From the NCBI RefSeq assembly GCF_017876755.1, contig NZ_JAGIOO010000001.1, forward strand, positions 5,565,786-5,629,785: a stretch of 64,000 nucleotides of DNA. The letters are read 5' to 3'. Source of the stretch: Crossiella equi. Lineage in GTDB: Bacteria; Actinomycetota; Actinomycetes; Mycobacteriales; Pseudonocardiaceae. The stretch's first letter is position 1, and each line of letters starts with the position of its first letter. The notes under the pieces were generated by a model. That model was not told the origin of the DNA. It was given only the letters and a program-made list of their open reading frames with translations, and searched no databases. Positions 19,330 to 24,649 of the stretch are shown here, in pieces. A program made the translations under genes and the position numbers.

Positions 19330-20451
19330 ATGCTCCGGACCGTGATCGACATGTTCTGGCACCCGGACTGCCTCGAGCACGACACCGGTACCGGTCTGTG
19401 GGAGCTGCCCGGCCGGTGGGACTGGCTGGACGAGCCGGAGGCGCACCCGGAGAACGCGGCCCGGCTGCGCACCTTCCGGCACGCGCTGGCGCACGGCCCG
19501 GTCGCGCCTTCGCTGCGCTGGCACGAGGGCAGGCACGCGCGGGAGGAGGAGCTGGCCCGCGTGCACACCCCGGCCTACCTGGCCGAGCTGCGCGCGGCCT
19601 GCACCCGGGGCGGGCTGGTCGCGATCGAGGAGAACACCGTGGTCGGGCCGGGCTCCTGGCCCGCCGTGCTGGCCGCGGCGGGCACCGCGGTCGCGGCCAC
19701 CGAGGCGGTGCTCTCCGGTGCGGCGCACACGGCCTACGCGCTGGTCCGCCCGCCGGGCCACCACGCGCAGCCCACCCAGGCGGACGGGTACTGCCTGGTG
19801 AACAACGTGGCGGTGGCCGCCGCGCACGCGCTGGCCAGCGGGCTGGACCGGGTGGCGGTGCTGGACTGGGACGTGCACCACGGCAACGGCACGCAGGAGG
19901 TGTTCCTGGCCGACGAGCGGGTGCTGACGGTCTCGGTGCACATGCGGCACGGCCGCTGGGGCCGCGCGCACCCGCAGACCGGGGCTCCGGAGGAGACCGG
20001 GCGGTCCGGCCACAACGTCAACATCGAGCTGTCCCTGGGCGCGGGCGATGCCGCCTACCGCCGGGCGTTGGAGGAGGTGGCCGAGCCGGTGCTGCGCGAG
20101 TTCCGGCCGCAGCTGCTGCTGGGCGCCTCCGGTTTCGACGGGTCCACCTTCGACCCGAACGGCCGGTACAACCTGACCGCCGCCGGTTACCGGTGGATCG
20201 GCGGCCGCGTGGCGGCGCTGGCCGGGGAGCTGACCGGCCGGGGACCGGTGCTCACCCAGGAGGGCGGCTACCTGCGGGGGTACGCGGCGCTGTGCCTGCA
20301 CGCCCTGGTCGAGGGCCTGCTGGGGCACACCGAACCGCTGCTGGCCGACCCGCTGGCGTACCTGCCCGACGACTCCGCGCGGAACCCCGACCGCACCACC
20401 GCCGATCTCGACGCGGTGCGGTCGGTGCTGCGCGAATTCTGGGCTCTCTAG
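19330..20451 (+). CDS. Class II histone-deacetylase-like amidohydrolase
   Basis: A 373-residue zinc amidohydrolase of the HDAC/acetylpolyamine amidohydrolase superfamily. The active site is complete: RPPGHHAQ with the His144/His145 pair, LDWDVHHGNGTQ with Zn ligands Asp181 and His183, and GASGFDGS with Asp270. Bacterial members deacetylate polyamines, acetoin-pathway proteins or other acetyl-lysines. The start is uncertain: ATG 19330 puts the family beginning (MFWHPDCLEHDTG) near the N-terminus; ATG 19285 would add 15 residues and 19351 is also possible. The stop overlaps the convergent chorismate mutase gene by 4 bases. Confidence 0.92.
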   Translation: MLRTVIDMFWHPDCLEHDTGTGLWELPGRWDWLDEPEAHPENAARLRTFRHALAHGPVAPSLRWHEGRHAREEELARVHTPAYLAELRAACTRGGLVAIEENTVVGPGSWPAVLAAAGTAVAATEAVLSGAAHTAYALVRPPGHHAQPTQADGYCLVNNVAVAAAHALASGLDRVAVLDWDVHHGNGTQEVFLADERVLTVSVHMRHGRWGRAHPQTGAPEETGRSGHNVNIELSLGAGDAAYRRALEEVAEPVLREFRPQLLLGASGFDGSTFDPNGRYNLTAAGYRWIGGRVAALAGELTGRGPVLTQEGGYLRGYAALCLHALVEGLLGHTEPLLADPLAYLPDDSARNPDRTTADLDAVRSVLREFWAL

Positions 20452-20744
20452 CGGCCCAGGCGGCCGCGGCCGAGGCGGAGCAGGATCATGGCCAGCTCCT
20501 TGCCCTCGGGACCGAGCTCGCGGAAGCGCGCCAGCACCGCCATCTCCCGGTTGTAGACGATCTTCGGTCCGCCGGCCGCCATGCGGGCCGCGCCAATGGC
20601 CTTGGAGACCTCGGTGCGCCGCTGGATGAGGCGGAGGATCTCCGCGTCCAGGTGGTCGATCTCCTCGCGCAGGGCGGGGATCTCGGCGTCGGTGGGCACG
20701 GCGATCGGCTGGGCTGACTCGCTGCTGTCCAGAGCTGCGTTCAT
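20448..20744 (-). CDS. aroQ: Chorismate mutase, AroQ-delta type
   Basis: A 98-residue all-helical chorismate mutase that turns chorismate into prephenate, the branch step to Phe and Tyr. The core (LREEIDHLDAEILRLIQRRTEVSKAIGAARM ... YNREMAVLARFRELGPEG) and especially the end LLRLGRGRLGR match the intracellular actinobacterial form (M. tuberculosis Rv0948c), whose C-terminal tail is known to be positioned by complex formation with DAHP synthase, which raises its activity. No signal peptide. ATG 20744 has GAGGA 8 bases upstream; the in-frame region before it is the attenuator leader. Regulation by Phe/Tyr attenuation is inferred from the leader at 20801-20918. Confidence 0.95.
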   Translation of the reverse strand: MNAALDSSESAQPIAVPTDAEIPALREEIDHLDAEILRLIQRRTEVSKAIGAARMAAGGPKIVYNREMAVLARFRELGPEGKELAMILLRLGRGRLGR

Positions 20745-20800
20745 CGTGGTCGTCCTCGTCTGGCTCTCGGGTGGTGCCCCGTCACCCTGGCCCCGGCAAC

Positions 20801-20831
20801 ACAAAACCCCGGGTCCAAGGGGACTCCGGGG
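20801..20831 (-). terminator. Attenuator terminator ahead of chorismate mutase gene
   Basis: Read on the minus strand: CCCCGGAGTCC - CCTT - GGACCCGGGG, a ten-pair stem with one bulged A, followed by TTTTGT. This intrinsic terminator sits 57 bases before the aroQ start codon and behind the Phe/Tyr leader peptide. The 5' arm (20821-20829) is perfectly complementary over 9 bases to 20873-20881, giving the alternative antiterminator pairing. Confidence 0.85.
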
Positions 20832-20855
20832 CAGGGTCTCGTGGTTCGCCTGGCG

Positions 20856-20918
20856 TCAGCCGACCACGGGTGCCGGAGTCCGGTACCCGTAGAAAAAATA
20901 AAACGCGCGGTGAGCCAC
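20856..20918 (-). CDS. Phe/Tyr-rich attenuator leader peptide
   Basis: A 20-codon open frame, GTG to TGA, encoding MAHRAFYFFYGYRTPAPVVG. Six of seven residues from 6 to 12 are Phe or Tyr, encoded TTT TAT TTT TTC TAC GGG TAC; TTT and TAT are almost unused in the surrounding genes, so the run is not a by-product of base composition. It precedes the chorismate mutase gene, which leads to exactly these two amino acids. A hairpin (20866-20890, ACGGGT/ACCCGT with inner CCGG/CCGG) starts within the control codons. Stalling on the Phe/Tyr codons would melt that hairpin and free 20873-20881 to block the terminator. There is no good ribosome site; a leaderless start is likely. Confidence 0.85.
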   Translation of the reverse strand: MAHRAFYFFYGYRTPAPVVG

Positions 20919-20924
20919 GGCTCG

Positions 20925-20954
20925 ATTCTGCCACGGCGGGCAGCCGAGCGTCGA
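20925..20954 (-). promoter_or_regulatory. Promoter of the aroQ leader transcript
   Basis: TCGACG (20949-20954) as -35 and CAGAAT (20925-20930) as -10, 18 bases apart. The G of the leader GTG at 20918 is 7 bases past the -10 box, so transcription would start at the start codon, giving a leaderless leader peptide. The boxes are imperfect matches and this is inference. Confidence 0.5.
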
Positions 20955-21040
20955 CCCGCGTCCCGGATGGCGGGCACCTCCAGGCAACCTCAGAGGCGTT
21001 TCCAACGTTTACCGTGCAGGACCACTGGAGGGAACCGATC

Positions 21041-21523
21041 ATGCGCACACTTGCCCTGACCGCCGCGGCCCTGGCCGCCGTCGCCGCGTTCGCCCCCGCC
21101 GCGGGCGCCGCCCCCGCACTGCAGTACGACGTCGCGCTGGGCACGAGCGCGGCCGAGATCCACGCCCGGCCCCACGAGCAGTTCAACTTCCAGCTCACCG
21201 CCACCAACCTGGGTACCGAGGACCCGGGCAACAGCGGTGGCCTGTACTCGCTGAAGGTCAAGGGCCTGAAGTTCACCGCGGCCCAGGGCGAGGGCTGGAG
21301 CTGCACCGTCGAGCCGGACAACCCGGACAACCCCTACGCCTTCTTCTGCCTGCCCACGGCCAAGACCATGCCCACCGGCACCAGCCACGCGCCGGTCACC
21401 GTCTTCGCCACCCCGGACGGCACCGGCTCGAACGTCTTCATCCCGGCCAATGTCGACGGCTGGCGCCGCTCCGAGCAGAACCACGGCAACAACCGGGTCA
21501 ACATCCTGGTGTGGATCGGCTGA
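21041..21523 (+). CDS. Secreted protein of unknown function
   Basis: A 160-residue protein with a Sec signal peptide (MRTLALTAAALAAVAAFAPAAGAAPA, cleavage probably after AGA, about residue 23). The mature part is beta-rich with two Cys in GWSCTVEPDNPDNPYAFFCLPTA (about 87-105) that could form a disulfide, and resembles in style the DUF11-like repeat domains of surface proteins (LTATNLGTED...GTSHAPVTVFATPDG). ATG 21041 is preceded by GGAGGGA. The 5' region lies against the divergent aroQ attenuator. No catalytic motif is seen. Confidence 0.8.
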   Translation: MRTLALTAAALAAVAAFAPAAGAAPALQYDVALGTSAAEIHARPHEQFNFQLTATNLGTEDPGNSGGLYSLKVKGLKFTAAQGEGWSCTVEPDNPDNPYAFFCLPTAKTMPTGTSHAPVTVFATPDGTGSNVFIPANVDGWRRSEQNHGNNRVNILVWIG

Positions 21524-22261: not shown

Positions 22262-24649
22262 ATGGACGCCTTGTTCGAACTCCACGACGACACCCCCGCC
22301 CCGCGCCGCCCGGCCGCCCCAGGCCCGGAAGAGCTGCTGCACGGGCTCAACCCCCGGCAGCGCGAGGCCGTCGAGCACAGCGGGTCCCCGCTGCTGGTCG
22401 TCGCGGGCGCGGGCTCCGGCAAGACGAAGGTGCTCACCAGCCGCATCGCCTACCTGCTGGCCGCCCGCGGCGCGCACCCGGGCGAGATCATGGCGATCAC
22501 CTTCACCAACAAGGCGGCCGCGGAGATGAAGGAGCGGGTCACCGCACTCGTCGGCCCGCGCGCCCGGGCCATGTGGGTGTCCACCTTCCACTCCATGTGC
22601 GTGCGCATCATGCGCCGCGAGGCCAAGTCCGCCGGGCTGAACTCGAACTTCTCCATCTACGACAGCGACGACTCGCGTCGGCTGATCACGCTGGTGGCCA
22701 GGGACCTCGACCTGGACCCCAAGCGGTACCCGGCCAAGAACCTGGCGATCCACATCTCCAACCTGAAGAACGAGCTGCTCGGCCCCGAGGAGGCGGCCGA
22801 GCGCGCGGGCAACGACCTGGAGCGCCGGGTCGCCGAGGTCTACGGCGAGTACCGGCGGCGGCTCGTCCAGGCCAACGCCATGGACTTCGACGACCTGATC
22901 ATGCGCACGGTCGAGCTGCTCCAGCAGCACCCGGCCATCGCCGAGTACTACCACCGCCGGTTCCGGCACGTGCTGGTCGACGAGTACCAGGACACCAACC
23001 ACGCGCAGTACGTGCTGGTGCGCGAGCTGGTCGGCACCGGGGCCGACGGCGTGCCGCCCGCCGAGCTGTGCGTGGTGGGCGACGCGGACCAGTCCATCTA
23101 CGCCTTCCGCGGCGCCACCATCCGCAACATCGAGGAGTTCGAGCGCGACTACCCGCAGGCGCGCTCGATCCTGCTGGAGCAGAACTACCGCTCCACCCAG
23201 ACCATCCTGTCCGCGGCGAACGCGGTCATCGCGCGCAACCAGGGCCGTCGCGAGAAGCGGCTGTGGACCGACTCCGGCGACGGCGAGCGCATCGTCGGCT
23301 ATGTCTCCGACAACGAGCACGACGAGGCCGCGTTCGTGGCCAACGAGATCGACCGCCTGGTCGACGCGGGCGAGACCGTCAACGGCGACATCGCGGTCTT
23401 CTACCGCACCAACAACTCCAGCCGCGTGTTCGAGGAGGTGTTCATCCGCCTCGGCCTGCCGTACCGGGTCGTCGGCGGGGTGCGCTTCTACGAGCGGCGC
23501 GAGGTGCGCGACGCGCTGGCCTACCTGCGCGTGCTCGACAACCCGGAGGACACGGTCAGCCTCCGGCGCATCCTGAACGTGCCCAAGCGGGGCATCGGCG
23601 ATCGGGCCGAGGCGGTGGTGGCCGCGCACGCCGAGCGCGAGCGGATCTCCTTCGCGCAGGCGCTGCGCGAGGCCGCGGCCGACCGCGTGCCGCTGCTCAA
23701 CCCGCGGTCGCAGCGCGCCATCGCCGGGTTCGTCGACCTGATCACCGAGCTGCGCGGGCTGGTCGAGGTCGGCCAGGACGTGGCCGAGGTGCTCGACACC
23801 CTGCTGGACAAGACCGGCTACCGCGGTGAGCTGGAGGCCAGCGACGACCCGCAGGACTCCTCCCGCCTGGACAACCTCACCGAGCTCGTCACCGTGGCCA
23901 GGGAGTTCGTGCAGCTCCAGGTGGCCACGCCGGAGCCGGGGGAGGAGGCCGTGCCCGATCCGGTCGAGGAGGGCCTGCCCGCGCAGGACTCGCTGGCCGC
24001 GTTCCTGGAGCGGGTGTCCCTGGTCGCCGACTCCGACCAGCTGCCGGACGAGGGGGACGGCGTGGTCACGCTGATGACCCTGCACACGGCCAAGGGCCTG
24101 GAGTTCCCGGTGGTGTTCTGCACCGGCTGGGAGGACGGCCAGTTCCCGCACCAGCGCGCCCTGGGCGACCCGGCCGAGCTGTCCGAGGAGCGCCGCCTGG
24201 CCTACGTGGGCATAACGCGGGCCCGGGAGCGGCTCTACCTCTCGCGGGCGCTCATGCGCTCGGCGTGGGGCCAGCCGGTGATGAACCCGGCCTCGCGGTT
24301 CCTCGACGAGATCCCGGCCGAGCTCGTGGACTGGCGTCGGCTCGAGCCGAAGCGCGCCAGCCCGGACACCGCCACCACGTGGGGCCGCCGAGACCGGGTG
24401 GCCGGTGGCGAGATCAGCTCGTTCGGGCGCGGGCGCGGGGTGCCGAACTCGCCGTTCAACAAGGGCTGGCAGAACACCCCGGCCATGAAGCTGGACGTGG
24501 GCGACCGGGTCAGCCACGACAAGTACGGCCTGGGCACGGTGGTCGAGACCAACGGCACCGGGCCGCAGGCCACGGCGACCATCGACTTCGGGTCCTCGGG
24601 CAAGGTGCGGCTGATGCTCATCGGTGGCGTGCCGATGGTGAAGCTGTAG
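22262..24649 (+). CDS. pcrA: ATP-dependent DNA helicase UvrD1/PcrA
   Basis: A 795-residue superfamily 1A helicase acting in nucleotide excision repair, replication restart and removal of RecA. Motifs in order: Q motif LNPRQREAV, Walker A VAGAGSGKT (47-55), Ia ITFTNKAA, II VDEYQDTN (239-246), III VGDADQSIYAFRGA, IV QNYRSTQTIL, V LMTLHTAKGLEFPVVF, VI RRLAYVGITRARERLYL. The C-terminus ends with a Tudor-like region (KLDVGDRVSHDKYGLGTVVETNG) that contacts RNA polymerase in PcrA/UvrD proteins. Position and sequence match M. tuberculosis uvrD1 (Rv0949), next to chorismate mutase. The gene runs to 1 base from a convergent membrane protein gene. Confidence 0.96.
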   Translation: MDALFELHDDTPAPRRPAAPGPEELLHGLNPRQREAVEHSGSPLLVVAGAGSGKTKVLTSRIAYLLAARGAHPGEIMAITFTNKAAAEMKERVTALVGPRARAMWVSTFHSMCVRIMRREAKSAGLNSNFSIYDSDDSRRLITLVARDLDLDPKRYPAKNLAIHISNLKNELLGPEEAAERAGNDLERRVAEVYGEYRRRLVQANAMDFDDLIMRTVELLQQHPAIAEYYHRRFRHVLVDEYQDTNHAQYVLVRELVGTGADGVPPAELCVVGDADQSIYAFRGATIRNIEEFERDYPQARSILLEQNYRSTQTILSAANAVIARNQGRREKRLWTDSGDGERIVGYVSDNEHDEAAFVANEIDRLVDAGETVNGDIAVFYRTNNSSRVFEEVFIRLGLPYRVVGGVRFYERREVRDALAYLRVLDNPEDTVSLRRILNVPKRGIGDRAEAVVAAHAERERISFAQALREAAADRVPLLNPRSQRAIAGFVDLITELRGLVEVGQDVAEVLDTLLDKTGYRGELEASDDPQDSSRLDNLTELVTVAREFVQLQVATPEPGEEAVPDPVEEGLPAQDSLAAFLERVSLVADSDQLPDEGDGVVTLMTLHTAKGLEFPVVFCTGWEDGQFPHQRALGDPAELSEERRLAYVGITRARERLYLSRALMRSAWGQPVMNPASRFLDEIPAELVDWRRLEPKRASPDTATTWGRRDRVAGGEISSFGRGRGVPNSPFNKGWQNTPAMKLDVGDRVSHDKYGLGTVVETNGTGPQATATIDFGSSGKVRLMLIGGVPMVKL

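Follow-up and report, generated by a model that had tools for sequence, protein, structure and literature searches.

Within the open-access literature searched, the closest described counterpart of the locus reported here is AroR, a leader peptide with the motif Phe-Tyr-Phe that precedes the DAHP synthase gene aroF in Corynebacterium glutamicum (Neshat et al., 2014, as summarized in PMC11802643 and PMC4046766). As far as these descriptions go, the two systems have in common an actinobacterial Phe-Tyr-Phe leader peptide, a downstream gene of the aromatic pathway and, on the side of AroR, stalling under Phe limitation. The leader in the window (the whole 64-kb stretch of DNA analysed) precedes aroQ, however, and not aroF; it is therefore not an aroR, though by description alike in working. 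In Escherichia coli, as outlined in PMC11802643, Phe codons in the leader pheL likewise control a chorismate mutase activity by attenuation, but there the activity belongs to the bifunctional chorismate mutase-prephenate dehydratase PheA and only Phe is described as the signal, so that the likeness is again one of descriptions.

Leaderless leader peptides are described for actinobacterial trpL, ilvL and leuL in Streptomyces lividans (PMC8079986), at ilvB of corynebacteria (PMC10272879, PMC5784534) and at ilvB1 of Mycobacterium tuberculosis (PMC13236596). According to the available text of these papers, they share with the present locus a short leaderless ORF rich in the pathway amino acid, competing stems and a terminator, and differ from it in the amino acids and genes concerned; none of the eight S. 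lividans leaders listed there is for Phe or Tyr (PMC8079986). A comparative survey from 2005 reports, in its accessible part, no conserved RNA regulatory structures before phenylalanine/tyrosine operons in Actinobacteria (PMC1262725). Our search of the open-access literature returned no Phe/Tyr attenuator on chorismate mutase, an earlier prediction elsewhere being possible. Within the literature searched, this bears out the initial sequence-only reading of the stretch, which knew of no such attenuator on this type of aroQ, and as far as the search reached the attenuator is new both in its target and in its spread. A leader RNA of the aroQ type may have been recorded without a name among the 96 novel premature transcripts given for S. 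clavuligerus in the available text of PMC8269248.

Here we describe a predicted ribosome-mediated transcription attenuator upstream of aroQ, classical in mechanism, a reading in which we have high confidence on the grounds of sequence comparison.

The leader locus upstream of aroQ

The genome consists of a single 9.44 Mb contig, in which the elements listed in Table 1 precede aroQ. We take the encoded enzyme, an actinobacterial monofunctional chorismate mutase at the branch to Phe and Tyr, to be of the type that goes by the name AroQ-delta. The gene product scores 126.6 bits against NF005894 (cut-off 73) and 104 bits against TIGR01808 (cut-off 52.15) in NCBIfam and matches CM_2 in Pfam; the solved chains nearest to it are intracellular chorismate mutases, including Rv0948c (2qbv).

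Table 1. Elements of the aroQ leader locus, in positions of the window.
Feature	Position	Strand	Remarks
-35-like TCGACG	20949..20954	-	read from sequence; 18-nt spacer to the -10-like hexamer; not flagged by the sigma-70 scan
-10-like CAGAAT	20925..20930	-	6 nt 5' of the leader start codon
Leader ORF, 20 sense codons and TGA (20858-20856)	20856..20918	-	GTG at 20918, apparently leaderless
First hairpin P1	20866..20890	-	arms 20890-20880 and 20876-20866; 5' end inside the Tyr-10 codon
Antiterminator 5' strand GGACTCCGG	20873..20881	-	P1 loop and flanks
Antiterminator 3' strand CCGGAGTCC	20821..20829	-	within the terminator 5' arm
P2 (second antiterminator helix) 5' strand CGTGGT	20863..20868	-	overlaps the P1 3' arm
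P2 3' strand ACCACG	20840..20845	-	own pairing exceeds that with exchanged partners
Terminator stem-loop	20807..20831	-	alignment, folding and terminator scan
Terminator tail TTTTGT	20801..20806	-	read from sequence
aroQ, monofunctional chorismate mutase, 98 aa	20448..20744	-	ATG 20744; NCBIfam, Pfam

The sequence-only reading placed the minus-strand leader frame, including its control codons 6-12 (F-Y-F-F-Y-G-Y), correctly to the base; the frame reads VAHRAFYFFYGYRTPAPVVG, in which residue 1 would be Met if translated. The hairpin starting inside the control codons, the perfect 9-base complement between 20881-20873 and 20829-20821, and the terminator with its tail followed by aroQ were likewise recovered in place and in order. 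Across all six frames of the 64 kb, the leader holds the sole 7-codon stretch with at least six Phe/Tyr. The TTT and TAT codons had been called very rare in this DNA, and five neighbouring genes agree with this: none of their 42 Phe codons is TTT and one of their 37 Tyr codons is TAT, against two TTT and one TAT in the leader. Being unique in the window and written with codons nearly absent from the five neighbouring genes, the aromatic run is more than chance. For the leader RNA of 118 nt the calculated folding energy is -57.8 kcal/mol (z -4.04), a stability reached by none of 200 shuffles, and the terminator scan flags 20820-20807. No Rfam family matched the window at gathering score.

Around the locus, aroQ and a convergent histone-deacetylase-like gene (19351-20451, plus strand) overlap by four bases at their stop codons, and a PcrA/UvrD-like helicase gene (22262-24649, plus strand) lies upstream of aroQ and divergent from it; both names are readings only. 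When the genome was searched with the RNA model, the window site was found at E 9.6e-17 and no further copy appeared, the remaining matches being at chance level from E 1.6 and the first of them antisense to the window site. No small ORF with at least three Phe/Tyr/Trp in eight codons was seen in the 900 nt preceding the matches to pheA, to class-II DAHP synthase and to a second chorismate mutase (L231, L232, L229). The last of these (C1:1152051-1152257) is a second chorismate-mutase-like gene with a signal-peptide-like start and without an aromatic leader.

Conservation of the leader

The comparison covered 153 aroQ loci, namely 90 from 89 genomes of the same family (a family sample of 90 genomes with G088 left out), 20 from as many further genomes in the order, and 43 from named records, which partly duplicate other loci in the set. 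The leader is present at 140 of them (129 recognized by the peptide pattern and 11 by the nucleotide core), i.e. at 89 of 90 loci and in all 89 genomes of the family, at 16 of 20 loci in the rest of the order and at 35 of the 43 named loci. The one miss in the family, L029, is a second aroQ copy, and the other aroQ of its genome does have the leader; one of the eight named loci without a leader, L058, has just 3 nt of upstream sequence. Among the 89 same-family genomes, L130 carries the Phe/Tyr codons out of frame and was counted for its RNA core, its control codons being unreadable.

A promoter-like pair and a probably leaderless start at GTG had been proposed for the window. In 137 of the 140 loci a hexamer of the form NANNNT stands 5-8 nt before an in-frame start codon, compared with 6.2 loci on average and 15 at most when the upstream letters were shuffled and the same rule applied. 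The spacing is 6 nt in 88 and 7 nt in 44 loci, and the start codon is GTG in 115 and ATG in 22. The leader ORF therefore looks leaderless, with transcription probably starting at or near the start codon. Of the promoter-like pair, the -10-like hexamer stands by virtue of this conservation; a sigma-70 promoter scan of 20700-21050 was empty, so the promoter call depends on the hexamer.

Thinning at 90% identity reduced the 140 leaders to 115 non-redundant ones (alignment A1). A start codon could be assigned in 112 of these, giving peptides of 16-23 aa with a mean of 3.96 Phe+Tyr (range 2-6).

Several loci depart from the pattern. The regions upstream of aroQ at five named mycobacterial loci (L062, L063, L068, L069 and L070, including Mycolicibacterium senegalense and M. 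brisbanense) are without a leader, apparent losses in a group where it is otherwise present. Mycobacterial aroQ loci without a leader seem to share the PcrA/UvrD-like helicase neighbour. L067 (Mycobacterium sp. 141) has kept the -10-like box, the start codon and a terminator-like stem, is missing the Phe/Tyr codons and first hairpin, as if an inner part of the leader had been deleted. In two genomes of family f8, genus g65, other short ORFs precede aroQ (L137, L139), with an ATG 6-7 nt after a -10-like box and no Phe/Tyr cluster.

Pairing and co-variation of the competing stems

In the 115 leaders, 97.0% of P1 cells are paired, against 91.5% in shuffled and at most 60.2% in slid versions, and the covariation score of P1 is 0.143; shuffled versions score 0.052, with none of 500 reaching the observed value, and slid versions 0.111 or less. 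One of its pairs occurs as AU 55, UG 31, CG 12, UA 7, GC 1 and other 9 times. Across 26 diverse leaders, a set that includes a family with 7-10 Mb genomes, 94.7% of cells are paired, again with co-variation: the pair of the Gly wobble base is CG in 12 and GC in 12, and that of the Tyr wobble base CG in 17, UA in 6 and UG in 3. Because these synonymous wobble bases co-vary with their partners, selection appears to act on the RNA rather than on the peptide.

This bears on the idea that the conserved peptide itself stalls the ribosome on a ligand, as an arrest peptide would, for which speaks that the peptide end (RTPAPV and similar) is strikingly conserved and proline-rich. However, seven leaders (L006, L079, L028, L119, L129, L026, L082) carry a frameshift just after the Phe/Tyr codons that leaves a wholly different peptide end and keeps the P1 arms; the base lost in L028, L119 and L129 makes the antiterminator shorter as well. 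Frameshifts and wobble co-variation together indicate that the RNA accounts for the conservation of the peptide end, and on these two grounds the arrest peptide, to which we assign a very small probability, was rejected in favour of attenuation by competing RNA structures.

The antiterminator shows 93.9% of its cells paired, and at four of the nine pairs both sides have changed in some sequences. Strands pair better with their own than with exchanged partners in each of three sets (19.9 against 17.4, 20.0 against 17.2 and 18.1 against 13.3; none of 500 exchanges as high). Before aroQ the strand pairs include GGACTCCGG/CCGGAGTCC, GGGAGTCCGG/CCGGGCTCCC, CGGCCCG/CGGGCCG and CCGCGG/CCGCGG; before DAHP synthase genes, CGGACCCG/CGGGTCCG and CCGGCCCG/CGGGCCGG. 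Under the strict run test, L048 and 17 others have only CCGG in common with the terminator arm, and in the exchanged-partner test on alignment A3 the best run differs from the expected antiterminator in L203, L214 and L223.

A second helix, P2, spans the stop codon, with the strands CGTGGT/ACCACG in the window and GTGAT/ATCAC or CGTAG/CTACG elsewhere. It was assessed by an unaligned search with exchanged partners since MAFFT misplaced it in the spacer; its own pairing is 12.19, compared with 11.05 when partners are exchanged among species (none of 500 as high). It reaches at least 5 pairs in 82 of the 115 leaders and none in 6. Since some of its bases also belong to P1 and the helix lies within the antiterminator, P2 would form part of the antiterminator state.

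The numbers of pairs changed on both sides were reached by 191 of 500 shuffles for the terminator and by 167 of 500 for the antiterminator, these shuffles ignoring relatedness; slid versions, which allow for relatedness, gave clearly lower proportions of cells paired and covariation scores. The sequence-only reading had named an alignment of relatives as a comparison that could refute its proposal. Aromatic codons and competing stems turned out to be conserved and co-varying among them, which strongly supports ribosome-mediated attenuation as the probable mode of control.

Terminator and folding behaviour

A terminator stem is present before the structural gene, and the U-tracts are weak: the commonest tail among the 115 leaders has 4 T in 9 nt, and 45 of 115 have 2-3 or fewer. 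Such tails, weak in many leaders, would suit a scheme in which the alternative stems mask or free the ribosome-binding site of aroQ and transcription is not ended, and mycobacterial cysteine-responsive leaderless ORFs are described, in the available text of PMC13236596, as acting on translation. In the window, to which the opposing evidence is confined, the stem nevertheless ends 63 nt before the aroQ ATG and is followed by TTTTGT, and the GAGGA before the ATG lies outside the competing strands. We thus consider translation attenuation improbable and keep transcription attenuation as the preferred reading.

Folding calculations were made on the 115 leaders. In RNA truncated behind the terminator 5' arm, the antiterminator has P>0.5 in 113 when the stretch masked by the ribosome reaches 6 nt downstream of the Gly codon's first base, in 105 when it reaches 9 nt downstream, and in 32 without a ribosome. 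A ribosome placed at the stop codon leaves the antiterminator ahead in 65 of these truncated RNAs. Free full-length RNA forms the terminator in 112; in full-length RNA the stalled ribosome leaves the antiterminator in 42 and the terminator in 65, and moving the ribosome to the stop codon puts the terminator ahead in 89. The leader of the window itself, without a ribosome and with the 3' arm absent, favours the antiterminator (P 0.64). Given these equilibrium results, the attenuation model needs co-transcriptional timing. Other attenuators likewise depend on the order of events during transcription.

Proposed mechanism

As in attenuators of the trp/phe type, the locus combines an ORF with control codons, predicted to be translated, with a first hairpin over these codons and an antiterminator that excludes both P1 and the terminator. 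The elements, their conservation and their co-variation are apparent from the sequence and its comparison. According to the model, RNA polymerase would start at the GTG and a ribosome would translate the 20-codon leader behind it. When charged tRNA-Phe and tRNA-Tyr are ample, P1, or the ribosome at the stop codon, would block pairing of GGACTCCGG and the terminator would form; if no ribosome is present, P1 would do the same. In both cases transcription would stop near 20801. Under Phe or Tyr shortage, the ribosome would wait on codons 6-10 and cover the P1 5' arm, GGACTCCGG would pair with CCGGAGTCC, stacked on P2, and, the terminator being prevented by this antiterminator, aroQ would be transcribed. 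The leader and its competing hairpins thus very probably switch aroQ on once either amino acid becomes scarce. From the arrangement we infer the leaderless start, the timing and the response to Phe/Tyr.

Spread in the class and the DAHP synthase leaders

Two RNA models were run on the same sample of 394 genomes of the class. R1 was built from 70 leaders hand-picked from 111 (alignment A2; 4 others were excluded from the listing) and R2 from 14 DAHP synthase leaders. At E 0.01, R1 gave 74 matches in 69 genomes; of the 70 that were fetched, 43 lie before aroQ, 18 in DAHP synthase loci and 9 at neither gene, some of the latter being plain chance and one, L194, having a leader-like ORF. R2 matched 182 genomes at the same threshold. 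These tallies were rejected as true counts of sites, given the nine R1 matches at neither gene and the resemblance of weak R2 matches to bare GC-rich terminators.

Families f8 and f33 contribute 23 and 11 genomes, respectively, to the aroQ set from R1; we tentatively take f33 to be Streptomyces. The R2 search confirmed 14 more aroQ leaders in f33, 25 in all; they resemble MLTQTTFLFTYGNRPTGCHGRAA.

Forty R2 loci, comprising the 20 best matches and 20 picked from the next ones without a random draw, were inspected. DAHP synthase, the step common to all three aromatic amino acids, is encoded at 26 and aroQ at 14. At every one of the 40, a -10-like hexamer is followed by a short ORF containing aromatic codons. 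The DAHP synthase of L204 matches DAHP_synth_1 and DAHP_snth_FXD in Pfam. The DAHP synthase leaders (L235-L258, L273, L274), which resemble MQRNFWRFYGYRPDTPVACRALR or MRTAWSFWYGDGPVRTDRLQALR, are of the leaderless type, with Phe/Tyr codons and competing stems like those of the aroQ leaders; Trp codons occur in 23 of the 26 and are absent in L255, L256 and L257.

The same loci speak to a further account, that the ORF is the gene of a small functional protein followed by an ordinary terminator, with aroQ unregulated. It would explain why the ORF is conserved and ends ahead of the terminator. However, the exact complementarity that links the loop side of P1 to the terminator arm shows co-variation, and the ORF precedes aromatic-pathway genes in 40 of 40 loci checked; this account was rejected for these reasons, and we give it practically no weight beside attenuation.

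In both the aroQ and the DAHP synthase leaders, the ORF looks leaderless and has a Phe-Tyr-Gly-like core, the first hairpin begins at the Tyr codon and the competing stems have the same layout; the two RNA models also cross-match. Tentatively, they could constitute one homologous attenuator family of the Actinomycetia, with Phe/Tyr codons on chorismate mutase and usually additional Trp codons on DAHP synthase, the codons having been retuned on change of gene; we regard this as a possibility somewhat short of probable. The two kinds of leader may also have arisen by convergence.

Control of chorismate mutase in Actinobacteria has been discussed chiefly in terms of its allosteric partnership with DAHP synthase. 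A conserved Phe/Tyr attenuator would add a transcriptional layer to this control and would provide simple reporters of starvation. It would also account for small ORFs that annotations miss, and for transcripts ending prematurely, ahead of aroQ and DAHP synthase genes.
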